Assembly: GCA_004282745.1 (NCBI GenBank)
Contig: SHMT01000014.1
Location: 1-64,000 of the forward strand
Length of the DNA: 64,000 nucleotides
Source of the DNA: Candidatus Scalindua sp. SCAELEC01
GTDB lineage: Bacteria > Planctomycetota > Brocadiia > Brocadiales > Scalinduaceae
Direction: 5' to 3'
The translations under genes were made by a program, and so were the position numbers. The notes under the pieces were generated by a model, which searched no databases, was not told the DNA's origin, and worked only from the letters and a program-made list of their open reading frames with translations. This document shows, in pieces, positions 4,099-54,069 of this stretch. Position 1 is the stretch's first letter, and each line of letters begins with the position of its first letter.

Positions 4099-4240
4099 TA
4101 TACTAAAATCGATTTGGTTTTCGGTTTTACCCGTCCGAACGGTTGACAGGCCGGGCGGGCCGGAAACAAAATCTTGGTGAAGGTATACTCGCTCAATTTT
4201 AACTCGCATTTTATCCGAAAACCATTATGGGATGAGTATC
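4099..4240. repeat. Palindromic repeat family, copy with nested GC-rich hairpin
   Basis: The outer ends match the family seen at 53954 and 57997: left TATACTAAAAnCGATTTGG, right CCGAAAACCATTATGGGATG. Relative to those simple copies, an extra GC-rich hairpin of about 32 bases (4130-4161, CCCGTCCGAACGG ... CCGGGCGGG) sits inside the GGTTTTAC-CGG position. A similar insertion occurs at the same place in the copy at 55523. Confidence 0.7.
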
Positions 4241-4869: not shown

Positions 4870-5447
4870 ATATTACCGACATGAGAAGAATTGGTCAAGG
4901 TTTAAAACGTTCCTTTTGACCGACCAATAGGGAGACAATGTACTCAAAGGCATAATCCTCTCAAGGGTAACGGGTTAGTACCTCCTGCGCGGCTCTACCA
5001 ACTAGGCGACATAGTCAAATGACCTGTAGGTCGGGCCGGCCCGTCCGAACCGTTTCATCCGGGCAGGCGCTCAGTTTTATGTCAGATTTGGTCGATCTGA
5101 TCGAGCAGGACCGCAGGTGTAGCCTGAGCTACAGCGAGGATATTGCGAGTGAAGAACGGCCTAAGGTGGCCTGAAAATGAGATGCCCGCCCGGCCTACCA
5201 GCCATTCGGACAGGCGAGAACAATAAGTTATACTTCCCTGGGCCCTTAACTTCCATTTGGGTGTGTGCTTACCCCTCTAACGATAGTCTTGAAAGCATTA
5301 AAAATGTAATCACACGAATTAGTTGCATGTAAGTTGAAGGGAAATTATTCTTTTGCATTTTACTCTCTAATATATTACTTATTCTACGGTTGAATCAAGT
5401 ACTATTTACTATAAAAATTTTATTTATTAAAGAGTAACCCGATTACC
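4870..5447. other. Long intergenic with GC-rich hairpin repeat fragments
   Basis: No gene seen in about 580 bases. Stretches at 5030-5055, 5065-5075 and 5183-5215 carry the same GC-rich words (CCCGCCCGGCCTACC, CCATTCGGACAGGCG) found at 4130, 55543 and 60384, so this gap holds several copies or fragments of that hairpin family. A tRNA D-arm-like word occurs near 4995-5015 but no complete tRNA could be folded. Confidence 0.55.
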
Positions 5448-6009: not shown

Positions 6010-6083
6010 GCGCCCTTAGCTCAGCCAGGCAGAGCAACTGACTCTTAATCAGTGGGTCGAAGGTTCGATTCCTTCAGGGCGCA
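6010..6083 (+). tRNA. tRNA-Lys(CTT), prophage integration target
   Basis: Acceptor arm GCGCCCT pairs with AGGGCGC, followed by discriminator A. The anticodon arm ACTGA-CTCTTAA-TCAGT gives anticodon CTT (lysine, AAG). The T-arm is GAAGGTTCGATTCCTTC. CCA is not encoded. The 3' 47 bases are repeated at 50327-50373, so integration kept the gene whole on this side. Confidence 0.95.
6037..6083 (+). other. attL core of the prophage
   Basis: This is the 47-bp stretch from the anticodon stem to the discriminator base of tRNA-Lys. It is repeated without mismatch at 50327-50373; identity stops at both ends of the block. It lies at the junction with the prophage, whose integrase gene is at the opposite end. 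Confidence 0.92.
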
Positions 6084-6206
6084 TCTCCTCCCCCCCCTAT
6101 TGTTTACACCTAAATACTTATAAATAAAAATGTTAAAACAACAAATACCAAACGTCTCAAGGTTTGCAGCTTGTTACAATCTGTGTCATTTTGGTACAAA
6201 ATAACG

Positions 6207-6255
6207 GTCACAAATCGGTCACAAAAAATAGTTTGGTCACAAATCGGTCACAAAT
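6207..6255. promoter_or_regulatory. Candidate integrase arm-binding sites, left arm
   Basis: The word GTCACAAAT (one copy GTCACAAAA) occurs at 6207, 6218, 6236 and 6247, as two pairs with an 11-bp period about 29 bp apart. The same word occurs twice with 11-bp period at 50276-50295 beside attR. Clustered short direct repeats next to both att cores are typical of arm-type sites for phage tyrosine integrases. Confidence 0.7.
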
Positions 6256-6378
6256 ATACCTCCAAAATTCCGCCATTTTAGCCTAAAATATTTTTTTACT
6301 AAAGTTTTCAAATCACCTCGATATAGTTCTGCCCCCTTTTCTTCGTCTCCGATTATCATAGTTTCCATATAGATTTAG

Positions 6379-6426
6379 GCCCACTATAGCACTCGAACCT
6401 AGGACACACGGATTATGAGTCCGTTG
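6379..6426 (-). other. Degenerate 3' half of a tRNA (CAT anticodon)
   Basis: Read on the minus strand, this contains an anticodon arm ACGGA-CTCATAA-TCCGT followed by a variable loop and a T-loop-like CCTAGGTTCGAG, then a poorly paired tail ending TGGGCC. No 5' half is seen. It resembles the 3' part of a Met/Ile-type tRNA, the kind of fragment left as an old attachment site. Confidence 0.45.
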
Positions 6427-6644
6427 CAGAGATTAATTTTTAAAGACTTAAGCAAGTATTTTGACGTTTTGTTGACAGTGATTGTTTCGATATTTATTTT
6501 ATAATTGTGGATAACTTTTTTATTTTTGTCTTCGATTTTAATAGTTGTCATATTGACTTTTTATCGGTTTAATGTTATACAATTCCCTCAACTTACGATA
6601 AGGGCGCGATATATTGTATTTTCTTTTCTATTAGGAGGCACTCT

Positions 6645-8996
6645 ATGAGAATGCGTCTTACAATTATCCTATTTTTTGCCTGTATAGTTGTATTTACTTC
6701 TACGGTTTCTGCTGTATGTGCTGATAGTTCAAAAGGTTCTCCGAAAATTGAGAATGCTCATGGGAATACTGATACGGTAGCGCAATCCATAAAGATTACC
6801 CAGGATATGAAAGATTGGATTGTAAAACACTTTGATCCTAAAGTCAGAGGTGAATACCTTTCAGTATCTGAATTAGAAGATCAAAAAGGTAAATATTTTC
6901 TCGAATTACTTTCCGGTAACGGAAAAGTATTAAGAAGAAGAGTGATGAGGTCTGCCTCTGAAGCCAAATCAATACTTAAAGAGATTAATGACGGCACTCC
7001 TCTGATAAACTATATAGATAAAATAATATATGGAGATCGTAAAGTAAACAAAACAAGAGTTTATAATAATAGCCAGAAAAACAGCGTTGGAATCGGTCAA
7101 AAGTTATTAAAACCGAAAAAGATAAATAAGACTAACAACCCTATTTCGTCCACTAACAACCTGTCCGCCTCATCAAAGAGGAGTGCAGGTAATCAGTACA
7201 ACGGATACCCTGAAGGAGTCGGACAAACGTCTGTAACTACGATAGAGCGGCAGCCAGTAGCATCGCTACAACAAGGTTCTACAAACAAGACGCATAAAGA
7301 AACAGCAGCTAACGATACAAGAGAGACTAACAAGGATAAGATCCTAGAGGATACCCGAACTCAAACCAATAATCTAGAATCCAAAATTACTAATACAAGA
7401 TCTGAATTGACTAAAAAGGCGGAGGCAGGTGAGGCAGATGCTGAGTTCAGAATGGGGCTAATGTACGCCAAGGGAGAAGGCGTAAAAAAGAACTATGTTG
7501 AAGCTGCCAAATGGTTCCGTAAAGCTGCGGAAAAAGGAGGAGCAAATGCGCAGTGTGGTCTGGGGTTTATGTACGCCAAGGGTCTCGGTGTATCGAAGAA
7601 CTATTTCGAAGCCATCAAGTGGTATCGTATGGCTGCGGATCAGGGACATAAGAAAGCAAAAAATCAGCTTACTTTGCTCAAGAAAGCCATCAATGCAGAT
7701 GTAAATAAAAAAGATAAAAATGGTTTTACACTCCTGCACCTAGCAGCGGCTAAAGGAAACCCAGAAACCATCAAGATAATGCTGGAATCTGGTGCGGATA
7801 TAGCGTCAAAAGATAAAGATGGCAGAACGTCTCTGCACATAGCAGTAATTAAAGGAGAACTAGAAGCCATCAAGGTGTTACTGGATCATGGTGCAGACGT
7901 AGAAGTTAAGGATAAGGATGGTATGAAGCCCTTGCACTTAGCTGCGGGTATAGGAAACCCAGAAACCATCAAAACAATGCTGGAATCTGGTGCAGATATA
8001 GAGTCAAAAGATAAAGGTGGCTGGACGTCTCTGCACGTAGCAGTGCTTGAAGGGGAACTAGAAGCCATCAAGGAGTTACTGGATTGTGGCGCAAATATTG
8101 AGTCCAAAAATAAGGATGGCAGGACGTCTCTGCACATAGCTGTGCTTGAAGGAGAACTAGAAGCCATCAAGGAGTTACTGGATTGTGGTGCAGACGTAGA
8201 AGTTAAGGATAAGGATGGCTGGACACCTCTGCACCTAGCAGCGACTAAAGGAAATCCAGAAACCATCAAGATAATGCTGGAATCTGGTGCAGATATAGAG
8301 TCAAAAGCTAAAGGTGGCAGAACTTCTCTGCATCTAGCAGGGCTTAATGGAGAACTAGAAGCCAGCAAGGAGTTACTGGATCATGGTGCAGACGTAGAAG
8401 TTAAGGATAAGGATGGCTGGACACCTCTGCACCTAGCAGCGACTAAGGGAAATCCAGAAACCATCAAGATAATGCTGGATCATGGTGCAGACGTAGAACT
8501 TAAGGATAAGAATGGCTGGACGCCTCTGCACCTAGCAGCGGCTAAAGGGTATCCAGAAACCATCAAGACAATGCTGGAATACGGTGCAGATATAGAGTCA
8601 AAAGATAAAGATGGGAGCACGCCTCTGAACCTAGCAGTTCTTAGAGGAGAACTAGAAGTCACCAAGAAGTTACTGGATCACGGTGCAGATATAGAGACCA
8701 AAGATAAGGATGGTAGGACGCCCCTGCTTACTGCTGTGTTTAAGGGAAAACTAGAAGCCATCAAGGTGTTACTGGATCATGGCGCAGACGTAGAAGTTAA
8801 GAATAAGGATGGTATGAAGCCCTTGCACTTAGCTGCGATTTTTGGTGAACCAGAAGTCATCAAGGTGTTACTGGTTCATGGAGCAGATCTAGAGTCCAAA
8901 GATTCTGAGGGCTTTACAGCCTTGATGTTTGCATCAGATCTAGGCCATACAGCTATAGTCCGTATACTTACCGCTTCTAAACATGTAATTAAATAA
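6645..8996 (+). CDS. Secreted Sel1- and ankyrin-repeat protein (prophage cargo)
   Basis: The protein has 783 residues. A Sec signal peptide covers about 1-27. A linker to residue 255 is rich in Ser, Thr, Asn and Lys after a folded-looking start (about 45-130). Two Sel1 repeats (A-E-F-R-M-G-L-M-Y-x-x-G type) lie at about 258-335. About 13 ankyrin repeats of 33 residues run from about 350 to the end with the usual G-x-TxLHLA and L-L-x-x-GAD words. Both repeat types bind proteins. The ATG follows AGGAGG by seven bases. The ankyrin DNA repeats are nearly identical over long stretches, which suggests recent expansion. It lies between attL and the phage tail genes on the opposite strand, so it is probably lysogenic-conversion cargo; the target is unknown. 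Confidence 0.9.
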   Translation: MRMRLTIILFFACIVVFTSTVSAVCADSSKGSPKIENAHGNTDTVAQSIKITQDMKDWIVKHFDPKVRGEYLSVSELEDQKGKYFLELLSGNGKVLRRRVMRSASEAKSILKEINDGTPLINYIDKIIYGDRKVNKTRVYNNSQKNSVGIGQKLLKPKKINKTNNPISSTNNLSASSKRSAGNQYNGYPEGVGQTSVTTIERQPVASLQQGSTNKTHKETAANDTRETNKDKILEDTRTQTNNLESKITNTRSELTKKAEAGEADAEFRMGLMYAKGEGVKKNYVEAAKWFRKAAEKGGANAQCGLGFMYAKGLGVSKNYFEAIKWYRMAADQGHKKAKNQLTLLKKAINADVNKKDKNGFTLLHLAAAKGNPETIKIMLESGADIASKDKDGRTSLHIAVIKGELEAIKVLLDHGADVEVKDKDGMKPLHLAAGIGNPETIKTMLESGADIESKDKGGWTSLHVAVLEGELEAIKELLDCGANIESKNKDGRTSLHIAVLEGELEAIKELLDCGADVEVKDKDGWTPLHLAATKGNPETIKIMLESGADIESKAKGGRTSLHLAGLNGELEASKELLDHGADVEVKDKDGWTPLHLAATKGNPETIKIMLDHGADVELKDKNGWTPLHLAAAKGYPETIKTMLEYGADIESKDKDGSTPLNLAVLRGELEVTKKLLDHGADIETKDKDGRTPLLTAVFKGKLEAIKVLLDHGADVEVKNKDGMKPLHLAAIFGEPEVIKVLLVHGADLESKDSEGFTALMFASDLGHTAIVRILTASKHVIK

Positions 8997-9314: not shown

Positions 9315-9731
9315 TTACAACACCTTAATATAACTCGATTTCGTCTCTGTATCACTCTCCGCGCCTCTCTCTGCGTATAACTGTATATCCCACTCAAAGT
9401 CAATCAAAATCGTTACGTTAGAGGTGACTCTATTTGTGCCCGGCCCTAGATTTCCAGCGCTAAACTTTTTAGACTTAATCTTAACGTCGAAATCACTCGT
9501 CCCCAGCATGACAGGGCGGCTTTTATCGCCTCTTATGTATCCAAGCTTACCGACACCTATCCAAGCCATTCCCGGCACGTTCTGAAAGGTTACGTTGTTT
9601 TTATTCTTTACAATGTAGAGGCTCAAGTTTTCGTCAATATTCGTTTCCTTGATAATGTCGGCATCCTCGGAAAAATTCCGGTATCGTATCCGTTCGTCAA
9701 GCCTCTTTTTATATTCCGCTATCATGTCCAT
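9315..9731 (-). CDS. Phage tail-end protein, paralogue of the upstream gene
   Basis: 138 residues, last gene of the tail operon. The middle (about residues 35-75) contains SLYIVKNKNNVTFQNVPG and GYIRGDKSRPVML, which closely match SLYNVTNKNGVTFQNVPG and GFIGGDRGRPAVI in the preceding gene. The two are therefore tandem paralogues. The C-terminal half differs and looks beta-rich. It starts two bases after the stop of the upstream gene. It is probably a distal tail or virion accessory protein. I know no characterised homologue. Confidence 0.6.
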   Translation of the reverse strand: MDMIAEYKKRLDERIRYRNFSEDADIIKETNIDENLSLYIVKNKNNVTFQNVPGMAWIGVGKLGYIRGDKSRPVMLGTSDFDVKIKSKKFSAGNLGPGTNRVTSNVTILIDFEWDIQLYAERGAESDTETKSSYIKVL

Positions 9732-9732
9732 T

Positions 9733-10038
9733 TTATGTTATATCCACAGTGGGCCAACTGGGCGCCGATGCACTTGAAGTCGTATTATTGGTCTTCACGG
9801 TTGCGCTTATTACAGCCGGGCGGCCCCGATCCCCTCCAATGAACCCCAAAAAACCCCGGTTTTGTATGCCTGATCCTCCGGGCACGTTCTGGAACGTCAC
9901 CCCGTTTTTATTGGTCACATTGTAGAGGCTGAAGTTGTTGCCGCTCTTGTTCTCGCTATTGATAATAACCTCCTCGGCAAAATTGCTATAATCAATAGTG
10001 GTACCAAGTGACGATATTAAATTGTCCATTCCTGCCAT
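9733..10038 (-). CDS. Phage tail-end protein (short paralogue)
   Basis: 101 residues sharing the NKNGVTFQNVPG ... GDRGRP block with the downstream gene. The C-terminal part is Ser/Thr-rich. GAGAGGTG lies five bases before the ATG. It is probably a virion-associated protein translated with the PKD-domain gene before it. Function unknown. Confidence 0.6.
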   Translation of the reverse strand: MAGMDNLISSLGTTIDYSNFAEEVIINSENKSGNNFSLYNVTNKNGVTFQNVPGGSGIQNRGFLGFIGGDRGRPAVISATVKTNNTTSSASAPSWPTVDIT

Positions 10039-10048
10039 GGTTCACCTC

Positions 10049-10927
10049 TCAAGGACTGTTTTTATCAAAATTGTGTGAAGGGTTTTTTAATGTGGAAAAT
10101 TCCACAAACGCATCATTTGTCCCGGCCTTTCTCTTCCTCCACGACCAAGAGGTCACACCCGGCGAAAGATCCGTAAACTGTACCGTCTGCACATTTGACC
10201 CATATAAAACATCCGCGACAAAATCCGCCGCAAAAGGGGCAACGTTCACGCTCTGTGTATCTGTGTCAATATCAGTTGCCGTCCATATCTGTACCCTTGT
10301 CCCGGCACTGAGAAATTCAAGACCTCCGAACGTGTACCCGGTTCCATCAAGCCAAGATTCGTTGAAAGTGGTTCCAAGCTTTGCGGTAACGTCCTCAACG
10401 GGTATCCATACGTTGTGAGTTTCAGCACTGAGAAACTTACCCGATCCCGTTTTCACCTGTGAGTCTGCCGGATTTGGAATAGTAGAAAATTGTATCTGAA
10501 GCTCTGCCACACCGGACGAATGAGAATTGAGGTTATAACTATACGTCGCCTCTCCCGCACTTACGACAAAATTACCGATAAATTGCAATTGATACTTTAG
10601 TGGCGTACTTCCGGGCGGATGGTTCGTCCAAGAGGCGGCAAGAAAGTTTGTATGTGCAGCGGCGGCCGTTCCCCCCGACCCACTTTTTGATCTACCCGAA
10701 ACAAAAGACCCGGTAACGGTATTAGATCCCGTCTGTACCCACGCCTTTAAGGTTACGTTATAGGTTCCTTGTGAAGCGTAACTATGAGTAGGATTTTGCA
10801 CATTAGACGTAAAACCGTCGCCAAAATCCCAAAGCCATTTGTTTGGACTTCCCGTGCTGGTATCGGTAAAAGCTACCGTTACGGCGTCTGTTTGTACATG
10901 TGTAAAGCTTGCAACTACGGCCATCAA
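10049..10927 (-). CDS. Phage protein with two PKD-like domains
   Basis: 292 residues. The first PKD domain is at about residues 5-75, with the signature WLWDFGDGFTS followed by NPTHSYASQGTYNVTLKA. A middle beta-rich region (about 75-225) may bind a ligand. A second, more degenerate PKD-like domain lies near 235-290 (VQFTDLSPGVTSWSWRK ... NPSHNF). PKD domains are Ig-like folds that in phages decorate tails or fibres and may bind cell-surface glycan. The start overlaps the stop of the XhlA-like gene by four bases, so translation is likely coupled. Confidence 0.75.
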   Translation of the reverse strand: MMAVVASFTHVQTDAVTVAFTDTSTGSPNKWLWDFGDGFTSNVQNPTHSYASQGTYNVTLKAWVQTGSNTVTGSFVSGRSKSGSGGTAAAAHTNFLAASWTNHPPGSTPLKYQLQFIGNFVVSAGEATYSYNLNSHSSGVAELQIQFSTIPNPADSQVKTGSGKFLSAETHNVWIPVEDVTAKLGTTFNESWLDGTGYTFGGLEFLSAGTRVQIWTATDIDTDTQSVNVAPFAADFVADVLYGSNVQTVQFTDLSPGVTSWSWRKRKAGTNDAFVEFSTLKNPSHNFDKNSP

Positions 10928-11271
10928 CCACCGCCTTTTTTAAAGTAAGTACACGCGCTAATAAACAGGGCACCGGCTGCCGCTACAATTGTCAAGACCT
11001 TAAACAATAGGGCGTTCCTGCTACTGTTTGTTTTAACTGCCGTGGTTCTACTGGCCCGGCAAATAGAAAATTCTTTATCGACTTTAATAATGCGCTCGCT
11101 TATTATCTTGTTCTCCTCCTGAATATCCATGATAAGTTCATTGAGGTGTTTAAATTTCTCATCGGTGCTCGTCTTTAGATCATCAATGCTCTTTTGGATA
11201 GCCTTGAGTGTGAAATTCAATATGGACGGATCAAAATATTTTTGAGTAGATTGACAATCTTTGTTTTCCAA
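10924..11271 (-). CDS. XhlA-like coiled-coil membrane protein (possible holin-associated)
   Basis: 115 residues: a coiled coil at about 25-70 (heptad-like pattern, rich in Lys and Glu), a short basic stretch near 72-85, and one C-terminal membrane segment at about 88-108, followed by a Lys/Gly tail. This layout (cytoplasmic coiled coil plus one C-terminal TM) is that of the XhlA/hemolysin-associated family, which helps phage lysis. It is the only lysis-type candidate in the late operon; no endolysin was found nearby. Confidence 0.5.
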   Translation of the reverse strand: MENKDCQSTQKYFDPSILNFTLKAIQKSIDDLKTSTDEKFKHLNELIMDIQEENKIISERIIKVDKEFSICRASRTTAVKTNSSRNALLFKVLTIVAAAGALFISACTYFKKGGG

Positions 11272-11291
11272 TGATACACACCCCTTTCAAT

Positions 11292-13190
11292 TTAAATGTT
11301 AAATCCGACACCCTTTGCAGTAAGACCCACGGGAGACCGTCCGTTCTTTGTATTGATACTATAATTCAATGTTTTAATAATCCCCTTAAATATCACAGAC
11401 GAAGATCTTTCAACGTTGATCTTATCCCCGATCTGATACGCGGCCGCTTCATGTAACGGCACCTCACAAGACATATCATAAACGTTGCCGAATTCCGTTA
11501 AAATAGCGTTTGCGCAGTTCCCGGCATGTGCTGCCGTCTCTATGTACGGGTTTTCGTATACGTCGCCTTTTAACGTATCTGAGACACCCGTTACGGCCCT
11601 TGTGCTCGTAACCTCTACTGTTTGCTCGATTGTACCCTTTCCGTACTCAATTTTCGTGCCCGTTAACGTCAATGTCCAATCAGCCCCAGAATAACTGACT
11701 ATGGTTCGCAAGGTAAAATTATCGACCTTTGGTTGTACGGTCAACTTGAAAACAATCTCGTTTCCCTCTTCGGTCTGCACCCAGTCTGAGTCCTGTATGC
11801 TTGTGGCCGATCCAAAGAGGTGTATAAACGTACCGCCCGCCGTATGGCTTATACTGTTTATGTTTGCCTTGGTAATCCTCACCTCGGCTATTACTTTGGG
11901 CTGTAATGCCGGCACTACTACCTCTCCCCACCCCGCCACGTCATAAAGCATTTCCGTCGTCAAAGATCCCGACTCACTGGCCAACGTCTCCGATCCACCG
12001 ATTTCGATATTTGCAAAGGTCTTGCCTACGCTCCGCACTGTCTGTTCGTTCAGGAGGCTTTCAAAGCTGACCGAAAATGCCAAGCTATCATCATAATAAA
12101 TTGATTCATCTATCATGTGATTGTCCGCGCCCGTCAAGTTCACCACCTCAGAATAGATCCGCATTGAGGGGAAAAGATTACACTCCATCTTTGCGCCTGA
12201 CAGCTCAAGGAATTTATTGATTATGTCTATTACCGATTCGTCGGAGACGCTTAAAACTGGTTGTTTTGCTGGCGTGCTGTAGTCGGCCAATGTGACGCCG
12301 TCTTCGGTAAGGTTCCAACCCTTCAGCGCCGCAATATTCTCCAGCATTGCCTTAAGGGTAGAGAATGGGCTTGAATACTTGTAAGATAAGACGCCGGGAG
12401 TGTTTAGAAACTCGCTTGATATCGGTACAAGGATTTCGCCATTAAGGGAGTCAACAAAATAATCAACCCCGTCAACAATTTCATCACTTCCCGTATAGGT
12501 AACGCCCCATATAGGCGCGTGGCCGGTTGATATCGTCCCGGAAGCATCAACCCATTGCGTACCGTCTAAAACCGTAGTTATGTCGCTTGATATGCGTTCT
12601 CCGGGGATCTGGTGTACTCCGCCGTAGTCATAGCCACTCAAGGTGTATGCCCTGTCTGATTCGTTAAATACGACGCGTTTGACAATGCCCGTGAATAGCG
12701 GCACAAAATCGACCACCACTCCAGTACTGTTTGCCGCCTGAAACGCTATCGTGACAACTTGATTCAGGAAGCTTGCCGCCTTGCTGGCTGACTTGATTAT
12801 GATACTGAAGGTTGCCGCGCCATTGTCCCGCCTCTGTACGCTTACCTCACCATGTATGCTTGACGTGAAATCAACGCCGTTAATAAATACGCTTGCTTGT
12901 ACTAAGTAGGGTATATCCGTTGTGAAGACAACCACGCCCGTATCGGGTGCCAAGACAGTAACCTCAACCGTACCCGTATAATTAAACTTGCCGTCAATGT
13001 CGCTTGTCGGGGTTATGGTCGCTTGTACGGTTCCCGTATAGGCAAAGGTCGCCGAAAACGTGCTCCCCGGCGTGACTGTTAGCGATAGTGTGCCTTCGTA
13101 CGTAAAATCGCTACCACCGCCCGAAATGGAAGTGTCGGAAGCGTTGCCACCGATAGGAGGTGCACCGATACTACTATTACTGATTACCAT
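11292..13190 (-). CDS. Phage tail/baseplate protein (late-control GPD-like hub region)
   Basis: 632 residues. The N-terminus (1-90) is Thr/Ser/Gly-rich with repeated beta-strand words (YTGTV repeats), like a flexible or Ig-like linker. From about 100 onward, VFINGVDFTSSIHGEVSVQRRDNGAATFSI and the following segments resemble tail-hub proteins of the gpD/gp27 group that sit between tube and tip. The C-terminus (GDKINVERSSSVIFKGIIKTL) fits the end of such hubs. The position after the tape measure and two tail genes supports this, but the assignment comes from pattern only. Confidence 0.6.
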   Translation of the reverse strand: MVISNSSIGAPPIGGNASDTSISGGGSDFTYEGTLSLTVTPGSTFSATFAYTGTVQATITPTSDIDGKFNYTGTVEVTVLAPDTGVVVFTTDIPYLVQASVFINGVDFTSSIHGEVSVQRRDNGAATFSIIIKSASKAASFLNQVVTIAFQAANSTGVVVDFVPLFTGIVKRVVFNESDRAYTLSGYDYGGVHQIPGERISSDITTVLDGTQWVDASGTISTGHAPIWGVTYTGSDEIVDGVDYFVDSLNGEILVPISSEFLNTPGVLSYKYSSPFSTLKAMLENIAALKGWNLTEDGVTLADYSTPAKQPVLSVSDESVIDIINKFLELSGAKMECNLFPSMRIYSEVVNLTGADNHMIDESIYYDDSLAFSVSFESLLNEQTVRSVGKTFANIEIGGSETLASESGSLTTEMLYDVAGWGEVVVPALQPKVIAEVRITKANINSISHTAGGTFIHLFGSATSIQDSDWVQTEEGNEIVFKLTVQPKVDNFTLRTIVSYSGADWTLTLTGTKIEYGKGTIEQTVEVTSTRAVTGVSDTLKGDVYENPYIETAAHAGNCANAILTEFGNVYDMSCEVPLHEAAAYQIGDKINVERSSSVIFKGIIKTLNYSINTKNGRSPVGLTAKGVGFNI

Positions 13191-13202
13191 TTTTACCCTC
13201 TC

Positions 13203-13637
13203 TTAAAAAGGCCAGCCCGGATGATTTCGCACGTCCACCGCTCGAACCTGTTCAACTGTTCCCATGCCGTTGATTGAAGGTATCGCAGTGTCGACAACAA
13301 AAAGATAGATATCTCTTGCGCTCCCCTGTGCAGTACTGAGAGATGATGTGTCCAAAAGGTTCCAAATCGATACCAAGAGTTTAACCGTTTCCATACTATC
13401 CCAACCGGGAACGTGTAAGCTGATACGCCGCACACCTTCGATTTTAACCTCTTCTATCTTTTCCCTCTTTGCAATCTCTAAAATGTTAGGGTCTGGATCT
13501 GCAACATTTCCCAACGCAAGCCACGCCAAAACCTTCCGGTATTCCCTTTGCTTAATGCTAATGGGAATGGTTGATCGGTCTGAATTCCTTACATACTCTA
13601 CTAGCTCATTGTTTACATTACGCCTTTCTGTATACAT
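13203..13637 (-). CDS. Phage tail-module protein of unknown function
   Basis: 144 residues, mixed alpha/beta, no membrane segment or signal. It shares one base with the preceding gene and is 12 bases before the hub-like gene, so it belongs to the tail operon. I see no domain I can name. Confidence 0.55.
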   Translation of the reverse strand: MYTERRNVNNELVEYVRNSDRSTIPISIKQREYRKVLAWLALGNVADPDPNILEIAKREKIEEVKIEGVRRISLHVPGWDSMETVKLLVSIWNLLDTSSLSTAQGSARDIYLFVVDTAIPSINGMGTVEQVRAVDVRNHPGWPF

Positions 13638-15010
13638 TATAGCTCTGCCTCCGCTGTCATATGGAATGCGTACCTATTGCTTGCCACGACTGCCGCGTTT
13701 ACTTGGTGCATCATTCCGCCAGTTCCAATAGTATTAAGTAATGTGACTGCGTCTATATCTGATGGGGTAACATCTACACGACGACACTTTCCCGTTGCCC
13801 CCGTTCCGGGGGAGTAAAAAGTAATTACGGGTTCCGCAAACATTTCTACCGCAAACCGCCAAGGCCTTGAGCTTGACGCTGAATTACTGCTATCAGACGC
13901 CGCCCACATAGATCCGTTGTTCTCTATTGTTCCGGGGTCAACATCAATGTTATACGTTTTCACAAAATGCCTTTGCGCCTTTGCTATATCAATTTCAATA
14001 TCTCGATACTCAAAAGGAGTTGCAACGGTTCCGGGTTCGAGTTGTATCTTTGTCATTTCAAATAAACTGCCAAGTGTGTCATTTGTTGCCACATCATTGG
14101 AATAGATAAAAATTGCAACATTCACCGCGCTTGCCGTATCAATGGAGATATTTTCAATGGTGTATCTGGCCCATGTAGCAGTAACGCCAAGATCTGCCGC
14201 AACGTTTTCCGCCGTCCAGTTAGTTGCCGGAGTTATTACGGCACCTTCCGCGTTCCACGCGCTTACCACGTCCGAAGTAACGGTATCAACTGTGCTATCC
14301 CACGCTAAAACAACCGCCCTTATATCAGATAGTTTCGTTGCGTCTGAAACTCTCGCCTCAAATGAAAACGAAACATTGCCACCTAAAACCTCTTTAAGAT
14401 TTGCATTTTCGATTACCTGTAGGTATCCAAATTTTTTGGAAATCGTTTCAACATCAAATCTCACATACGGGTCATTGCCTGAAACGCCGCCGTCGGTCTG
14501 GTGGGTAACATCAACAATGTCATTGCCATCGGATAGTAATATATATCTATCTGAAAGGTATGTGTCGTCATCATTCGTGAACGTTGTTGATGCATCAAAG
14601 ACCGTGCCTCTCTGGCCAATCTCAAACATTGGATTGATTATTAAATTTTTTAATTTTTTTCCTGAAGCTGTTGCAATATCTGTTTCAATATCGTCAACCA
14701 TCTTCTTTGTAACCGCAAGGGCCATTTTGTAGGTTTTACTTGCCGTGTTCTTGGTCGTTCCGGTGGTACCCTCTTGCGCTCTGGTCACTGTCAACGTGTC
14801 TGTCACACGGTTTGTCACTCTCACGATCTCAACATTTGGATCGTCGGCGGGATCTTTATAATCTGTCCAGTTATACCACACGAGGTTGTAGTCAAAAGTT
14901 GACGGGAGATTTGCCCCGTGTCCAGACGTCAAAGTAATACTTGTTGCGCTGGCATCATACCCGATTGAGACCGTCACCTTTCCGAAATTGTTTCGCACAT
15001 CAATTGTCAT
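13637..15010 (-). CDS. Phage tail fibre-like protein with carbohydrate-binding-type domain
   Basis: 457 residues. Residues 1-120 form a short adaptor (VSIGYDASATSITLTSG ... TRAQEGTTGT is typical of virion proteins with a repeat-turn start). At about 145, the sequence NLIINPMFEIGQRGT, followed by DDTYLSDRYILL, is the classical opening of jelly-roll domains in receptor-binding tail proteins. Later, VATPFEYRDIEIDIAKAQRH is the standard closing motif of that domain. The C-terminal region (about 360-457) probably continues the fibre tip. It is the likely host-recognition protein of this phage. Confidence 0.75.
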   Translation of the reverse strand: MTIDVRNNFGKVTVSIGYDASATSITLTSGHGANLPSTFDYNLVWYNWTDYKDPADDPNVEIVRVTNRVTDTLTVTRAQEGTTGTTKNTASKTYKMALAVTKKMVDDIETDIATASGKKLKNLIINPMFEIGQRGTVFDASTTFTNDDDTYLSDRYILLSDGNDIVDVTHQTDGGVSGNDPYVRFDVETISKKFGYLQVIENANLKEVLGGNVSFSFEARVSDATKLSDIRAVVLAWDSTVDTVTSDVVSAWNAEGAVITPATNWTAENVAADLGVTATWARYTIENISIDTASAVNVAIFIYSNDVATNDTLGSLFEMTKIQLEPGTVATPFEYRDIEIDIAKAQRHFVKTYNIDVDPGTIENNGSMWAASDSSNSASSSRPWRFAVEMFAEPVITFYSPGTGATGKCRRVDVTPSDIDAVTLLNTIGTGGMMHQVNAAVVASNRYAFHMTAEAEL

Positions 15011-15027
15011 AATTTACCGTTCCCCCA

Positions 15028-15435
15028 TTAAGCAACTGTTATTTTAGGTGTAATTTCAATGGTCTTTGTGTCAGCAACATTGAAAGGCCCGGTTGAAAAG
15101 TGTTCGACAAAGATTATCTCTCCCGCCGTACCTGACGCCACGTTGCAAATGAAATAGCCGTACACGTTGCCCCAATCCTCCCCGGCGGTAAAGGTCTTTG
15201 CCAAGTTGGTCGCAATATCAGCCGCGCCGCTCCAATCCGCGTCATTGAGTTGGATTCTTGCGTATCCTGTTAATGCGAGCTCGGTTATTGTGGCAAGCGT
15301 TATTGTCTCCGCCGGTTCTGTCGTATCTGTGTATAATCCAAGGTAGAGAGAGTTTGCCCCTCTCGATGTCTGTACATTTTTAATATACCAAGAGATGATA
15401 TCTATCTCGCCTTCGTTGGTGAGTTTTCCGCCCAT
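15028..15435 (-). CDS. Small phage tail-associated protein
   Basis: 135 residues, beta-rich and acidic, with the pattern SLYLGLYTD ... ITELALTGYARIQL that recurs in small virion proteins near tail fibres. It lies two bases before the next tail gene. The exact role is unknown. Confidence 0.55.
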   Translation of the reverse strand: MGGKLTNEGEIDIISWYIKNVQTSRGANSLYLGLYTDTTEPAETITLATITELALTGYARIQLNDADWSGAADIATNLAKTFTAGEDWGNVYGYFICNVASGTAGEIIFVEHFSTGPFNVADTKTIEITPKITVA

Positions 15436-15437
15436 TC

Positions 15438-15839
15438 TTATACCTCCGTAAATGTCGCCGTAAATGTCCTTATGTTTGAAATTTTGTCGTGATTGTCTTC
15501 ATAGGCCGTAAGTAATACCGTACTGTTGAAATCCGCCGTTTCTGTATAGGTTCCGGTTGCCTCATACCACAATTTCAAGGTTGCCGTTATCCCTGCCTCA
15601 AAAAGACTCTCCAAGTAGGTATGAATATCAATTTCATAGAGTGTGCCCGTTAAGGTAATTACCTTTTTGTTATACCGTAGTGTTTGCGTTACAAGTGTTC
15701 CGTCTTGTGTCCGCCTTGGCGCCATTGGCCGTTGATGGTCTCGGCTGAATGTTAGCCCGGCGGGCGCATCTGCAAAGTTTATGATCTGCGTTCCAAGTGG
15801 CCCGGACGATGGAATGATCTCAACAAACTTGATTGCCAT
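15438..15839 (-). CDS. Phage distal tail-like protein
   Basis: 133 residues, beta-rich. MAIKFVEIIPSSGPLGTQI is followed by an Arg-rich loop and a long C-terminal sheet (RTFTATFTEV). Size, position right after the lipoprotein and tape measure, and the fold-like pattern suggest a tail-tip ring component. This is inference from context. Confidence 0.5.
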   Translation of the reverse strand: MAIKFVEIIPSSGPLGTQIINFADAPAGLTFSRDHQRPMAPRRTQDGTLVTQTLRYNKKVITLTGTLYEIDIHTYLESLFEAGITATLKLWYEATGTYTETADFNSTVLLTAYEDNHDKISNIRTFTATFTEV

Positions 15840-15842
15840 GTT

Positions 15843-16421
15843 TTAAAGCTCTCCCTTTTCCGGCACTTGGCCCATTAGCATTTTTAACATTACCTCTTTG
15901 GTTTTTAATACCGTTGAATACAAATCAAGCCCGGCCTCCGTTGTCGGCCTTGTAACGTTTACCCGTAAGGTCAAACCGTCGCCTATCGTCTCCTCTTTTG
16001 CCTCTTCAGCCTTAAGTAAACCTCTCGCGTATTTCAATTCTGCCTTTTCAATCCTGCGTAAACCGTAGACACATATTGCCGCCTTGCCTTTGGCATCAAA
16101 TATACTTTGGCTCTCATATGCCGCACCGGACAGGATCGAGAGAACGCCAAGAGTACCACGGCCCGCATTGCCTGAGACACCAAGCAACCCCGACATAATC
16201 CCGCTACCTCGGCCCACGGTAGTTGAAGCATAACGTAAGGCCGTTCCACCGTAAATGATATCTGAACACATAATTTTAAGATCTCCGGCATATGACAAGA
16301 TCTGTTTGTCTGTTATTCCTTGATCGAATTTGACCGGCTTAACAATAAAACTCTGTTGTACGGTAGTGGCACACCCTGAAAAACAAATCATTACAATGAG
16401 AAAGAGTAGTAATTTTTTCAT
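15843..16421 (-). CDS. Phage-encoded lipoprotein in the tail operon
   Basis: 192 residues. A lipoprotein signal peptide ends in the lipobox FSGC at about residue 17 (LFLIVMICFSGCATT). The mature protein has a Gly-rich hydrophobic stretch near 70-100 (a possible amphipathic or buried helix) and a helical C-terminal half. It sits between the tape measure and the tail genes, one base after the tape measure stop. Phage lipoproteins can block superinfection or receptor use (as in T5 llp), which is a reasonable guess here but not shown. Confidence 0.7.
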   Translation of the reverse strand: MKKLLLFLIVMICFSGCATTVQQSFIVKPVKFDQGITDKQILSYAGDLKIMCSDIIYGGTALRYASTTVGRGSGIMSGLLGVSGNAGRGTLGVLSILSGAAYESQSIFDAKGKAAICVYGLRRIEKAELKYARGLLKAEEAKEETIGDGLTLRVNVTRPTTEAGLDLYSTVLKTKEVMLKMLMGQVPEKGEL

Positions 16422-16422
16422 A

Positions 16423-18519
16423 TCAATATGGCCTTCGGCCCCTCCCGTGGATAATGTTTAATGTTTTAATGTCGTTAAGAAATTCGCTTGCCGTGTGTTT
16501 GTCGGTCTTCATGGCGTGGCTCTTGCCGTCAAGTAGCAAGTTTACGTTAACGCTCTGGCCGCCCTCCTCCTGTACAAAACCGCCCTCTTGAAACTTTTGA
16601 ACCTTACCGCTTGACATCGCCCTCGTAATGGCTGACATATCCATACGGTTGATTGCAGAAATAGTATTGACACCCAACGCCTTAACGGCCTCTTTCCTGA
16701 CAACAAACTCCCCGGCCTCCGCTAACACTGAAACCTTGTCGCCTCCACCGTAACCCGGCAAATGTGCGCCTTGTTGCGCGTGAACCTGTCCGCCCACCTT
16801 GAACCTTTGCCGGTTATCGGCCGCGCTTATCTCGTCCCGGTTGTTTTGTGCTGCAATTTTAAAGGTCTCGCTGGCCACCTCTGTAAGCCCTAATTTATCA
16901 GTTAGGAAACCAACACCCTGACCAAGCAATAAAAACGGTTCTAATGCCTCCTTGAATGCAAGTTTTACCTGTCTGGCAATGTCTATTACCTTACCGGCTG
17001 CCTTAACCATAAACGAGATACTATCGGCAACCTTTGCGATGAATTCCGGCAAGTTGTCGGTCATTGATTGTATTCCCTCTCTTAGCGCCTCAAGTTGTGG
17101 TCTTACCTTTTCAAGTATTGGATCTAATCCGCCTGAGTCCACAAGCTCTTTAAAACCGATTGCAAGGTCGCCAAGATCCGCGATAACGTCGACGATCTCG
17201 TCTCTGAACTGATCCCCGATAACGCGCGCCATATTATCAAAGGCTGTCTTGGCCTTATCGATCCGCACCTCTGCACTACCCATACGGATTCCAACCTCGG
17301 CAACTCTCGATCCTGTAGCGTTTAGGGCCACTTCAGTAACCTTGTTGACTCCCTCCAAATTAGAAAAAACCTTTGTGAGCCTTGCGGCCTGTTCGGCCCC
17401 GAATATTACGGCCGTTGATTGTAATTTTTGCTCATCTGTCAGATTTTTAAAGGCGTCCGCCAAGTCGAAAGAAATATCGCGAGCGCTTCTTAAGGCGCCG
17501 GACTCAGTTAATGTGTTGACCCCCAACTCTTTGAGTTTGTCCCCTGCTTCCTTTGTGGGCCTGACTAGCTTAACAAGTCCTGTCTTTAAGGCGTTGGCCG
17601 CCTCGTTTCCTGATCCAAACACCTCGATAATAGGTGTCAAGAAACCGGCTGTCTCTTCTATGGTGAGGCCCGCCGCCTGTGCTATTGGTGAAAGCGTAGC
17701 AACACCCGCCGCCAACTCCTTGAGGTTTGTACCGAAATTATTTGAAACCTCATTTAGTATGTCCGTCAATCTCCCTGCCTCTTTTGCCTCCACTCCAAAG
17801 CCCTTAAGTGACGCCTTAATCCTTTCGCTGGCCTTTTCAACGGTTATACCCCCGGCGATAGCTGTTTCAATCGCTATAACCTGCAAATCAAAGGCGTCTT
17901 TAATGCTAAAGCCTGCTTGCTTGAATGCCGTTGCACCTGCGAGCACGTCGGTTGCACTGACGCCAAAGACCTCCGACAATCCCGTCGCCGTCTTGATGAA
18001 GTCTTCCGCGTTGCCTTCTGTGTCCCCCAATACTTTCTGAAGATCCAAAACGGCACCCTCGAATTTTACGGATTCACCGAAAGCTTTTACTCCCAAAGCA
18101 ACACCCACGGCCGCAACGGCTGCACCCAATAAACCGGCGCCTTTCGTGACGGTTGCAAGTGGACTTTTTAAACTTGATATCGATTTTCCGAACGTTACAT
18201 TTGAGCGGCCAAGCTCTCTATTGTTGCGCTCTATCTTTCTGGTCATTTCGGTATGCGCCCTCTGGATATCGTTGGCGCTGGCCGTACCGCTCCTCTTGAT
18301 CTTCTCAAACTGTTCTTTGGCCCGGCGGCTACTCTCTTTTATAGCCTTCTCAGACCTTATGCCCATTGACTTAAAAGCCTGAGAAATTTCTTTTGATTCT
18401 TTGTCCGCGTCTTCCCTCATCTCCCGAAAGGATCTACTCACGGCCTGTTTTAAATCTCCAATGGTCTCTTGTCCCTCTCTGGTATCACCGCCTATTTTGA
18501 TTTTTACGTCTTTCCCCAT
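16423..18519 (-). CDS. Phage tail tape measure protein
   Basis: 698 residues. A long N-terminal coiled coil (about 1-120) rich in Lys, Glu and Arg is followed by the conserved TP901-type core from about 140 (FGVSATDVLAGATAFKQAG, GVEAKEAGRLTDILNEVS, FGTNLKELAAGVATLSPIA, VFGSGNEAANALKTGL). Membrane-like segments lie near 130-150 and 500-530. A glycine-rich GGQVHAQQGAHLPGYGGGDKV motif lies near 580, typical of tape measures. It sets tail length and enters the host envelope at infection. Confidence 0.93.
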   Translation of the reverse strand: MGKDVKIKIGGDTREGQETIGDLKQAVSRSFREMREDADKESKEISQAFKSMGIRSEKAIKESSRRAKEQFEKIKRSGTASANDIQRAHTEMTRKIERNNRELGRSNVTFGKSISSLKSPLATVTKGAGLLGAAVAAVGVALGVKAFGESVKFEGAVLDLQKVLGDTEGNAEDFIKTATGLSEVFGVSATDVLAGATAFKQAGFSIKDAFDLQVIAIETAIAGGITVEKASERIKASLKGFGVEAKEAGRLTDILNEVSNNFGTNLKELAAGVATLSPIAQAAGLTIEETAGFLTPIIEVFGSGNEAANALKTGLVKLVRPTKEAGDKLKELGVNTLTESGALRSARDISFDLADAFKNLTDEQKLQSTAVIFGAEQAARLTKVFSNLEGVNKVTEVALNATGSRVAEVGIRMGSAEVRIDKAKTAFDNMARVIGDQFRDEIVDVIADLGDLAIGFKELVDSGGLDPILEKVRPQLEALREGIQSMTDNLPEFIAKVADSISFMVKAAGKVIDIARQVKLAFKEALEPFLLLGQGVGFLTDKLGLTEVASETFKIAAQNNRDEISAADNRQRFKVGGQVHAQQGAHLPGYGGGDKVSVLAEAGEFVVRKEAVKALGVNTISAINRMDMSAITRAMSSGKVQKFQEGGFVQEEGGQSVNVNLLLDGKSHAMKTDKHTASEFLNDIKTLNIIHGRGRRPY

Positions 18520-18522
18520 AGT

Positions 18523-19041
18523 TTAGCTCTTTAACTTTACCCCCGCACCGACAAGCGCCTTAACCGGATCAACTCTTTTTGTCCCGGTCAACCTCTCAAC
18601 GGCTGTTTGTTGAAATAGCCTCACCTGTGGCAAGGTGTATTCTAAAATATCAGAAAATTTGTGGCCTTGATGGATAAGGAAGTCAAACGCAATAGCAAGC
18701 TTACTCGCGACAATTACGTCCCTTTTCTTTGCTTTCTGCGCTTTGATCTGTTGCTCTTCAGCATCGCCGAAATTAAGCTCGATGAAGACCTCGACAAGAT
18801 TGTTTAAAACCTCGATAGGTAATTCATCGATATCGATATCAATTGAATTCTCAACCAACTTTATTATATGAGGCAAGTATTCTACCTCCTTGGCTTCTCC
18901 CTCTTGTAGCTTTGCGACGCGGCACGCTAGGCCAATCTCCTTGACCTTAAGCGGCCGCATGAATGCCCGCAATACTTGACCGTCGGGAAGCTCCAGGACG
19001 ATAAACTTCTCACTAAAAAACTGGTCTGGTTTATCCAACAA
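18523..19041 (-). CDS. Tail assembly chaperone-like protein
   Basis: About 172 residues, charged and helical, placed between the tail tube and tape measure genes, where tail assembly chaperones lie. EKFIVLELPDGQVLRAFMRPLKVKE at the start resembles gpG-type proteins. I chose the TTG at 19041 because GGGAG sits six bases before it. The upstream in-frame GTG at 19113 would overlap the tube gene by more than 80 bases. The start lies inside the 3' end of the tube gene, in the +1 frame, so coupled translation or a +1 frameshift at the CTTTTTG stretch are both conceivable. Confidence 0.6.
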   Translation of the reverse strand: MLDKPDQFFSEKFIVLELPDGQVLRAFMRPLKVKEIGLACRVAKLQEGEAKEVEYLPHIIKLVENSIDIDIDELPIEVLNNLVEVFIELNFGDAEEQQIKAQKAKKRDVIVASKLAIAFDFLIHQGHKFSDILEYTLPQVRLFQQTAVERLTGTKRVDPVKALVGAGVKLKS

Positions 19042-19774
19042 AAAGCGCTCCCATTGGTTCGGTCGGCGTTGTGGACTTATCAACCAGAACGTTAAGGATA
19101 ATATTTGCCTCACTCCAATTGTCAGGCGTAATTGCTGTATCGCCTTCGATCTTTAGCTCTGCGTTGTTGATCTTCCATGTTAAAGCCTGACCGTTTGAGA
19201 CCTCGATTTCAATTCTTGCCGAACCTGTGATTGTGAAGTCTTTACCCGGAACAACTTTGAATCTATTCCTCGCGGCTGACGTGTAATTTAATTCTAATGT
19301 CAAACCGGTGGTGATACTTCCCCCGTCTATAATTTTTATTTCACCGGTTGTAGCGTTCACAATCTCATAGTCGGTACCCTCAACATAAGTGGGAGTACCA
19401 CCCGTACCGTCAATCGTTAGCGATGAAATATTCGTTTCAGCCGTAAAGATAGAACGGTCTAATATTACGGGTGCCGTTGCTGCTTCGTCGGTTATTGTTG
19501 CCCCTGCCTGATTAGACGCCGCCTTGCCGCTACCAAACATAAGTATGTTCATGTTGTCGGCGCTGAATTCATCTATATTGAAAGACAACCCCATTGAGGA
19601 TTCAGTAACAAGGGTTTTGTCTCTCTGCCTTGCACCATCTGAAAAAGTGAAATGCTCAAGCGTTGTAATTGCACGCTGCAAGTTAATACTCGGTATATTC
19701 CCCAAATCGAGGAACCCGTTTCCGTCGTTGAAAAACACACGACCCGAACCGATTAGATAGTTTTCCGTTCCCAT
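19031..19774 (-). CDS. Phage major tail tube protein
   Basis: 247 residues. SGRVFFNDGNGFLDLGNIPSI at the start, followed by HFTFSDGARQRDKTLVTESS, is typical of siphophage tube subunits. The C-terminal half reads like an Ig-like extension (ITGSARIEIEVSNGQ ... SEANIILNVLVDKS). It comes just after the tail terminator and before the chaperone and tape measure genes, the usual order. Confidence 0.85.
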   Translation of the reverse strand: MGTENYLIGSGRVFFNDGNGFLDLGNIPSINLQRAITTLEHFTFSDGARQRDKTLVTESSMGLSFNIDEFSADNMNILMFGSGKAASNQAGATITDEAATAPVILDRSIFTAETNISSLTIDGTGGTPTYVEGTDYEIVNATTGEIKIIDGGSITTGLTLELNYTSAARNRFKVVPGKDFTITGSARIEIEVSNGQALTWKINNAELKIEGDTAITPDNWSEANIILNVLVDKSTTPTEPMGALFVG

Positions 19775-19784
19775 AATTCCCCCT

Positions 19785-20237
19785 TTATGCTAAATTAAAC
19801 GGCGCGAACGCCTTTGTTAAATATCTCATCTCAAAAGTCATGAGGATTGAGGCAATCTTTTTGTCGTTTTGCCCAAAACCAAATGATTCATTTTGTACGG
19901 GTTTGGTATCCTGTACCAAGTTTGAAAACCCCGTGTCGGTACCGATAGCCTTAATAATGTCCGCCATAATATCGCGCATATCAGCACCCGACGTCGCCCC
20001 GGAAACCTTGGCCTCGATCTCAACCGTTAAGGTGTAAATGTGATTACCGCCCCTGACCTCTACCTCTTCCCCCGTGTCCCGTATGTCCATTGCTGGTAAT
20101 TCCGAAACCTGAAAGTCGGTCGTACGCCACTCGAAGACATTCGACCCGATATTCGTTTCATACCCATTGCCGGTCGTAATGGTCTGCATGCGCGTCTTTA
20201 ACGCCGCCATGATTTGTTCTCTGATACTATCAGCCAT
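19785..20237 (-). CDS. Tail terminator / gpU-like protein
   Basis: 150 residues. MADSIREQIMAALKTRMQTI, the central LPAMDIRDTGEEVEV and the C-terminal FGFGQNDKKIASILMTFEMRYLT match the pattern of lambda gpU-type tail terminators. It lies between the head-tail joining gene and the tube gene, as in lambda. It would close the growing tail tube. Confidence 0.65.
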   Translation of the reverse strand: MADSIREQIMAALKTRMQTITTGNGYETNIGSNVFEWRTTDFQVSELPAMDIRDTGEEVEVRGGNHIYTLTVEIEAKVSGATSGADMRDIMADIIKAIGTDTGFSNLVQDTKPVQNESFGFGQNDKKIASILMTFEMRYLTKAFAPFNLA

Positions 20238-20240
20238 TTT

Positions 20241-20540
20241 TTAATCCTGTGATAAAAGTACATTAGTTAGGCCGGTTCCGTCCGGCTGAATGCCTATAAC
20301 GTTGTATACAACGCTGTCAATCGTCATTGTGTCGCCATGCGCAAGTCCTGATACGTCGCTTGTCTTGACGGTAACTTGTGGCTGAAGCGTTTCGATGTCA
20401 ACGTCGTCTTGTTGATCCTCAAGGAAGGCATTATCAAAAATGCCTTGGATTGTCCCCGAATTATAGGTGATATCAACAGCGAATTCGTCCGAATCAAGGA
20501 ACGTGTCAAGGTCTGTTAATATGTCATCTTTTAAAGCCAT
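20241..20540 (-). CDS. Head-tail joining protein (lambda FII-like)
   Basis: 99 residues, acidic and beta-rich; VTVKTSDVSGLAHGDTMTIDSVVYNVIGIQPDGTG is the pattern of the FII/Gifsy attachment family that links the head neck to the tail. Size and gene position (capsid, FII, U, V order) agree. Confidence 0.7.
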   Translation of the reverse strand: MALKDDILTDLDTFLDSDEFAVDITYNSGTIQGIFDNAFLEDQQDDVDIETLQPQVTVKTSDVSGLAHGDTMTIDSVVYNVIGIQPDGTGLTNVLLSQD

Positions 20541-20615
20541 AATAGTATTTGTGACGGCCTAGCTGCTCCAACCAGACCGCCACACACTCCCCTTTATAAA
20601 ATTTATACGATACCC

Positions 20616-21575
20616 TTAAACACCTGTTACCAATCCACCGGCACCAGTATAGATAAAGGCTTCGTCAACATTCTGTCTTGCCCGGTAAACGTTACTTCTT
20701 TTCTGCTCTTCCCTGTACTGTTCAACGACAACGCTTTCAGGGCTGTCACCAGTCCAGAGGAATGTCCTCCCGATTGCCGGTTCAAGCATATTCTCACCCG
20801 TAGCGATTTTGAACAAGCCGACAAGGGTTGTGTCCCAAATATCGGTAAGAGACGATGTCTTACCCTTCTTCGCCGTATCTCTTATGGCATTGCCGGTCAA
20901 GACTCTATCAACACCGAAATACTGAGCAAGCACCCTTTTTTGTGCGTCCTCTCCACCTATCTCGATAGGGTTTGTATACTTCAGTGCTTCCCTGAGTTCA
21001 TTCGTTTCGATAAGCTCATCAAATACGCTCTTTGCCAGTGCCAAAACATTGGGAATTATGCCCCTGTTGTTTCTCATCTTCTTTTTAAGGGCAATCACAT
21101 CGGCCCTTGGCGTAGCATTGGTCGCATCACTCCAAACTGCTGCGGCCGCCTGCTGCGTTGGAATATTGGTAGTATTAAAGGTCATATTCGCAATACGCTT
21201 CTCCTGCGCCCTCAAGACCTTATCCATGGCCCTTTGGGTAGATATAACCTCGGCGTCAAAGAACGACGCGTAAAGCTCGCGCTCTACATCGTCGAGAAGA
21301 TCTTCGAAACCGTACTCCTCACAATCATAAGAACCGGTCGAAAACTCGTAATCATCCCTTTTGTAATCTCCCCTTGGCGCCCTTTTAAGTTCAGCCTCTT
21401 TGAACATAGCTTCAATAGGTATCTTGGGATAATTACTTTTCTTCTGTAACACGTTTTTAAACGGCATTAATACCGTCCCGATAAAGCCCGCCTGCTCCGC
21501 ATCAATCATATACTCGAAAGCAACGTCTCCTAGATCACGCCTCAACTCAGCCGATCCGCTTTTTAATATTGGCAT
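20616..21575 (-). CDS. Major capsid protein
   Basis: 319 residues, complete. It has an N-terminal helical arm, YPKIPIEAMFKEAELKRAPRGDYKR, then a long helix (VERELYASFFDAEVISTQRAMDK), and a C-terminal half with WTGDSPESVVVEQYREEQKRSNVYRARQNVDEAFI. The closing motif is common in capsid proteins of the HK97 fold. It is flanked by decoration and joining genes. The product forms the icosahedral shell. Confidence 0.87.
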   Translation of the reverse strand: MPILKSGSAELRRDLGDVAFEYMIDAEQAGFIGTVLMPFKNVLQKKSNYPKIPIEAMFKEAELKRAPRGDYKRDDYEFSTGSYDCEEYGFEDLLDDVERELYASFFDAEVISTQRAMDKVLRAQEKRIANMTFNTTNIPTQQAAAAVWSDATNATPRADVIALKKKMRNNRGIIPNVLALAKSVFDELIETNELREALKYTNPIEIGGEDAQKRVLAQYFGVDRVLTGNAIRDTAKKGKTSSLTDIWDTTLVGLFKIATGENMLEPAIGRTFLWTGDSPESVVVEQYREEQKRSNVYRARQNVDEAFIYTGAGGLVTGV

Positions 21576-21637
21576 CTTTTGCCCTCCTCAAATAAGAATT
21601 GGTATAAAAATAAATTTTTCCAAAAAATTTGGGCAAT

Positions 21638-21689
21638 AAAAAAGGCAAGTATCCTGTAAGGGTGTTGGCCCCAACAAGCCTTGCCTTTT
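21638..21689 (-). terminator. Structured hairpin with T-run between decoration and capsid genes
   Basis: On the minus strand, AAAAGGCAAG and CTTGCCTTTTTTATT form the outer stem, with an inner GTTGG/CCAAC arm pair. It follows the decoration gene and precedes the capsid gene by about 60 bases. It has the look of an intrinsic terminator or attenuator that could alter the decoration-to-capsid expression ratio. Confidence 0.6.
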
Positions 21690-21740
21690 AAATCGTTGCC
21701 TCTCGTATGCCTACGAAAGACTAGCCCGTATTCAATTGTC

Positions 21741-22502: not shown

Positions 22503-22551
22503 AGCGTTCCCCCCTCATAAAAATTAATTCTGTTAAAATGTGACTCTAATC

Positions 22552-23961: not shown

Positions 23962-23965
23962 ACTT

Positions 23966-24064
23966 TTAACGCCCCCTATTACGTTTACTTGACGCATTCG
24001 CAAGCTGTTTCTGTTTGCGCCTCTGGTTACGCTCTTTGGTCTTTTGCTTATTTGGCTTTGCCAT
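23966..24064 (-). CDS. 32-residue very basic protein between portal and protease genes
   Basis: This short frame overlaps the portal stop (TAATG) and ends just before the protease start. The product is almost entirely Lys, Arg, Gln and Asn (MAKPNKQKTKERNQRRKQKQ and on). Coupled translation and tight packing support that it is made. It may bind DNA or the acidic scaffold; no known homologue is recalled. Confidence 0.55.
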   Translation of the reverse strand: MAKPNKQKTKERNQRRKQKQLANASSKRNRGR

Positions 24065-25874: not shown

Positions 25875-25878
25875 AGCG

Positions 25879-26049: not shown

Positions 26050-26063
26050 AAAACCCTCCCCCT

Positions 26064-44985: not shown

Positions 44986-45050
44986 TTAGAGTGAGCGCTT
45001 CAAGTCTTAGGTTAGCAATCAACCAACCACCAAAAAGGCTGTGGTCAAAC

Positions 45051-45110: not shown

Positions 45111-45178
45111 CCGAATACAATTTTCTTCCGATAATTTCTCTGGTAAAGAGTCCGTTTTCACTTTTTAGAGGTATGGCC

Positions 45179-45784: not shown

Positions 45785-45823
45785 TTATGGCAACACTAAC
45801 GCTAAGTTTCTAGAGGAAGTAAA

Positions 45824-46831: not shown

Positions 46832-46850
46832 AAAAAACAACCATCCCCAC

Positions 46851-54066: not shown

Positions 54067-54069
54067 ATA

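Follow-up and report, generated by a model that had tools for sequence, protein, structure and literature searches.

A gene for a predicted exported Sel1-ankyrin protein inside the left end of a tRNA-Lys prophage of Candidatus Scalindua: probable lysogenic-conversion cargo

The window analysed here is a stretch of 64,000 nucleotides from Candidatus Scalindua sp. SCAELEC01, an ammonium oxidiser of the anammox family (contig SHMT01000014.1, positions 1 to 64,000), and it contains a 44.3 kb prophage inserted in tRNA-Lys(CTT). An open reading frame of 783 aa (6645-8996, plus strand), identified from the list of open reading frames and its translation, lies 561 bp within the left end of this prophage, next to attL. 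It has an ATG start with a ribosome site, AGGAGG, 6 nt 5' of it, and it reads inward, on the strand opposite to that of the late genes. The features of the locus are:

6010-6083, plus strand: tRNA-Lys (CTT), of which the 3' 47 bp (6037-6083) are the attL core (ARAGORN, Rfam, 47 bp exact repeat)
6206-6256, plus strand: integrase arm-type repeats GGTCACAAAT[C/A], three listed copies and one truncated, with the same motif by attR
6378-6427, minus strand: degenerate tRNA-Met(CAT) remnant, 3' part, found between attL and the ankyrin gene; it matches this genome's own tRNA-Met at C88 over 50 bp (90% identity)
6472-6500, plus strand: weak promoter-like TTGACA-17-TATTTT (promoter scan, which shows no excess over shuffles)
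6645-8996, plus strand: predicted exported Sel1-ankyrin protein, 783 aa (open reading frame, Pfam, AGGAGG at 6633-6638)
6645-6722, plus strand: predicted Sec signal peptide, residues 1-26, cleaved between VSA and V or between VCA and D, lipobox absent (hydrophobicity and direct reading)
6723-7430, plus strand: private segment, residues 27-262 (without relatives; structure models)
7434-7658, plus strand: two Sel1 repeats, residues 264-338 (Pfam PF08238)
7713-8993, plus strand: 13 ankyrin (ANK) repeats of 33 aa or 99 bp each (Pfam, repeat alignment, model)
9315-27950, minus strand: late prophage genes from tail to terminase, converging on the ankyrin gene (PHROGs)
49272-50276, plus strand: tyrosine integrase adjoining attR (Pfam PF00589)
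50327-50373, plus strand: attR core, identical to 6037-6083 (47 bp exact direct repeat)

The ends of the prophage are marked by the exact repeat of the tRNA-Lys 3' end and, just within both, by the arm-type motif RGTCACAAAT[C/A], at 6206-6256 and 50275-50296. The integrase ends about 50 bp from attR, and between the repeats are structural genes for terminase, portal, head protease, tape measure and tail. The element thus has the make-up of a temperate tailed phage that a tyrosine integrase inserted into a tRNA gene, and this bears out the first-pass annotation in placing the ankyrin gene on a prophage and beside its attL. Above the curated threshold, Rfam detects two tRNAs only. Promoter-like sites around the ankyrin gene are no commoner than in shuffled sequence.

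Integrases or their relics adjoin tRNA-Lys also in three relatives (G002, G004, and G006), which makes this tRNA gene an integration hotspot. The bases just past attR, 50374-50397, resemble what immediately follows tRNA-Lys in three genomes of the family, as would be expected if the element had split that site, but the matching DNA in those genomes may itself be relics of other integrases, so that the likeness marks the site rather than virgin chromosome. A C-terminal 194 aa piece of a second tyrosine recombinase (50339-50923, minus strand) runs into the attR tRNA fragment.

The window has other features as well. By the integrase there is an AT-rich block, 43990-49149, in which PADLOC detects a SIR2-like gene (E 8e-7) and which also has several open reading frames without a family match; these are possible defence genes. 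The tail module includes a PKD-domain gene at 10049-10927. A dispersed repeat of approximately 180 bp at 5067-5249, perhaps a MITE or else an RNA element, has at least 18 further copies of 86-94% identity in the same genome, with shorter and weaker copies in family members. Another, of approximately 110-140 bp, is present at 4099-4239, 53955-54067, 55578-55702, and 57999-58112, with an 89% identical copy in the congener Candidatus Scalindua sp. RBC_AMX3 (G001).

All of the features of Sec export can be read at the N-terminus of the ankyrin protein: an n-region, MRMR, is followed by a hydrophobic core at residues 5-16 (Kyte-Doolittle mean 3.23) and then by the VSA and VCA signal peptidase sites, so that export, as the first-pass annotation had it, stands as a prediction. 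Sel1 and ankyrin repeats are combined in one protein, again as that annotation stated, with the Sel1 repeats scoring 76.7 bits in Pfam against a cut-off of 30.7 (E 1e-21) and several ANK families above cut-off (E 1e-124). The ANK units number 13, from residue 357 to the C-terminus, the last of them degenerate, a copy number to be treated with care if the assembly is a short-read metagenome, as its 104 contigs suggest. This combination of domains is ordinary. In an AlphaFold model made without an alignment, the Sel1 and ANK parts would form one continuous helical solenoid, with pLDDT mostly 75-96 and lower toward the C-terminus, while confidence is low for residues up to approximately 264. Models of residues 27-262 suggest a possible small alpha-beta domain at about 52-130, a low-complexity linker, and a long helix at 225-260. 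Repeat positions 5, 13, 14, and 22 are the most variable in an otherwise fixed ANK framework, and positions 5, 13, and 14 are target contacts in designed ankyrins. Pfam and PADLOC revealed neither an enzyme domain nor a toxin domain in the protein.

There are no orthologues of the protein in 59 relatives or in IMG/VR. Residues 27-262 have no relatives among the 59 related genomes; parts of this segment had no match in PDB, and the N-terminal segment had none in 392 genomes of the phylum, where a single match at E 0.005 was rejected as it sits in an unrelated open reading frame. There is a weak structural lead to UPF0339/YegP (DUF1508) at residues ~71-118, with five members among the matches listed (Z 2.9-4.8; model pLDDT 58.6). 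PF07411 scored nowhere in the 59 genomes nor in the source genome, and these residues gave no Foldseek match below E 0.1 and no Pfam match. Matches of the protein to PDC-M72A, Ankyrin, and MzaA in PADLOC are limited to the generic ANK part and were rejected. Searched against viral models with Foldseek, the protein matched chiefly generic ANK proteins from giant viruses and poxviruses.

The ankyrin repeats had been described as nearly identical at the DNA level and the array as young. Pairs of repeats taken in register (repeats 1-12, excluding the degenerate 13th) are only 60-92% identical, which makes near-identity an overstatement; identities of 92-97% are reached by out-of-register 99 bp windows only, the best being 92% at lag 99, 97% at lag 198, 92% at lag 297, 93% at lag 495, and 95% at lag 891. 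Two repeat types alternate irregularly, the clearest groups being 1, 3, 6, and 9 and 2, 5, 7, and 11, with repeat 8 mixed. What holds of the description is that the homogeneity exceeds the codon-redraw expectation. When synonymous codons were re-drawn with the protein fixed (500 draws), the maximum in those windows was 0.87; matched residues use the same codon in 63-76% of cases, against ~41% when permuted; and in four other readable ANK genes of the order the best lag window is at most 0.57-0.70. Since this homogeneity goes beyond protein constraint, the array has grown by DNA duplication with homogenisation. It is not freshly made, and its youth is not supported as claimed, since every repeat pair tested still has synonymous differences (NG86 dS 0.13-0.61). 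In all nine of the closest repeat pairs dN is below dS.

The tRNA-Lys locus was compared in relatives, where the same gene without the prophage would have spoken against carriage by the phage. The ankyrin gene is absent from this locus in the congener G001 and in the other family genomes compared, and this absence supports its being prophage cargo. In G001 (contig C24, JALDRB010000007.1) the same NusG-like gene, open reading frame, tRNA-Arg, and tRNA-Lys are present, at 77-78% DNA identity, and in G004 ordinary genes follow tRNA-Lys. At 2.6 kb past tRNA-Lys, G001 carries a tail-gene remnant of ~550 bp with 55-73% protein identity to the genes at 9315-10927, and between this remnant and tRNA-Lys there are a TIR-TPR gene in two frames (L061, 10829-12202) and a small open reading frame. 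The region from attL to the end of the tail genes therefore holds different genes in the source genome and in G001, and from the equivalent placing of the TIR-TPR gene it looks like a swappable, variable cargo slot, although the comparison is with one congener and a decayed prophage. A chromosomal gene merely lying beside the prophage was rejected: 561 bp separate the exact att repeat from the gene, which is on the prophage side of it and past the arm-type sites, and relatives lack the gene at the locus.

Such cargo is unusual for a phage, as had been remarked in the first-pass annotation: of 50,697 phage records, 38 have ANK similarity, and Wolbachia phage accounts for 13 of these. Exported ANK proteins on prophages are, for all that, a rare yet known kind, of which ankyphages and phage WO are examples. 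The ANKp proteins of the 'ankyphages' of sponge symbionts (Jahn et al. 2019, cited in PMC7064744 and PMC8245591) are phage-encoded secreted ankyrins. The present protein resembles them in being phage-encoded, in its ankyrin repeats, in its predicted signal peptide, and in being probably cargo, a likeness of features. It differs in that its host is an anammox-family planctomycete that is not a known symbiont, and in its Sel1 repeats, private N-terminal segment, and 13 repeats. Wolbachia phage WO (KX522565, HQ906662) also has ankyrin on a temperate phage and gives the best matches among phage records, 33.5% over 65% of the query, but any two ANK arrays would be as similar, and the WO proteins have PRANC or TPR domains and an obligate endosymbiont as host. 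Closer to the host, chromosomal exported ANK proteins of the Brocadiales (L008, L012) share a hydrophobic N-terminus and ANK repeats; their similarity is weak, at 30-36%, and their arrays are not homogeneous, the best lag window being 0.59-0.70 against 0.97 here. The presence of such proteins at other loci of the order means that export alone is no pointer to phage function.

Prophages of Mycobacterium abscessus have toxin-immunity cassettes beside their attachment junctions that are transcribed inward and expressed in lysogens (PMC8092301), an arrangement with which the reading of the Scalindua region as a slot agrees. The likeness is in the location by an attachment junction and the inward direction, against the late genes (example L091; PMC8092301); the difference is that the ankyrin gene has a predicted Sec signal and is without a toxin or WXG partner.

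On the observed gene, its domains, the prophage ends, the absence from the locus in relatives, and the duplication signal, the best explanation is probably that this is a lysogenic-conversion (moron) gene for an exported binding protein that changes the envelope or extracellular interactions of the lysogen. One moron feature of the gene is its position inside the att repeats. Another is that no ANK match came from the 12 viral contigs, some of them fragments, whose terminase or tail genes are related, a set without an internal positive control. The 44.3 kb phage would bring the gene in a variable slot between its attachment site and the end of its tail module, and the gene, transcribed inward against the late genes, would be expressed in the lysogen. 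The product would leave the cytoplasm by the predicted Sec pathway, and there its modelled Sel1-ANK solenoid would bind a protein partner, so that the lysogen may interact differently with grazers, or else with rival phages or toxins. The array would have been built as DNA units of one to three repeats were duplicated, and recombination among the copies would keep them alike; its length may therefore vary.

What such a protein might bind could be read in two ways, between which the evidence gives no choice. Possibly the protein serves immunity or superinfection exclusion from a place in the envelope, where the solenoid would bind and neutralise an incoming toxin or phage entry protein. In polymorphic toxin systems, those of planctomycetes among them, ANK and Sel1 proteins are repeatedly found in the role of immunity or trafficking partner (PMC3482391). 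In mycobacterial prophages ANK-similar immunity genes adjoin integrases, and here the congener has TIR-TPR in the same slot and a SIR2-like gene lies at the opposite end of the prophage. On the other hand, ANK immunity proteins are usually cytoplasmic, no toxin-family open reading frame was found beside the ankyrin gene, and PADLOC matches are confined to the generic ANK part. The other reading, put forward tentatively, is that the protein, once secreted, targets protist grazers, or an animal host, by binding their receptors or signalling proteins, and so cuts uptake of the lysogen. Secreted phage-encoded ankyrins suppress phagocytic uptake by sponge cells, as reported in PMC7064744 and under the name ANKp in PMC8245591, and ankyrin genes are abundant in coral phages (PMC11309003). 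Predicted export and ANK repeats are common to the present protein and the ankyphage effectors. The Scalindua family is, however, regarded as free-living and anaerobic, and generic ANK similarity to ANKp would say little.

It is unlikely that the segment was brought by a different mobile element, a user of tRNA-Met, and is now a passenger without function for the phage, heading for decay. The tRNA-Met(CAT) remnant at 6378-6427, 218 bp upstream of the gene, is possibly the relic attachment site of another element, or else a tRNA fragment, and GC3 is 0.31 in the N-terminal part of the gene compared with 0.48-0.53 in the phage structural genes. But the frame is intact across 783 codons behind a good ribosome site, no second copy of the tRNA-Met fragment flanks the gene, and the excess of dS over dN is as purifying selection would give. 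A phage structural protein encoded apart from the others, such as a fibre accessory, is very improbable: the gene does neighbour the tail module, with its PKD-domain gene, but its product carries a predicted signal peptide, its strand is the opposite of that of the late genes, and the related virus contig L069, whose tail genes are 34-58% identical, has no ANK gene.

As lysogenic-conversion cargo, the gene might be taken further. A phage of a free-living anammox family would give its host a secreted Sel1-ankyrin binder, its array remodelled by recombination, against protist grazers or rival phages, from a swappable attachment-site slot filled by immune-type genes (TIR-TPR) in other members of the phage group; in this full form the proposal is rather doubtful. 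Within the limits of the literature search, ankyrin cargo of anammox phages was not the subject of any paper found. Most of the known secreted ankyrins carried by phages come from animal symbionts, and this case in the anammox family suggests that they occur outside symbionts too. The tRNA-Lys attachment-site slot would be a place of variable cargo that could be mined across Scalindua genomes.
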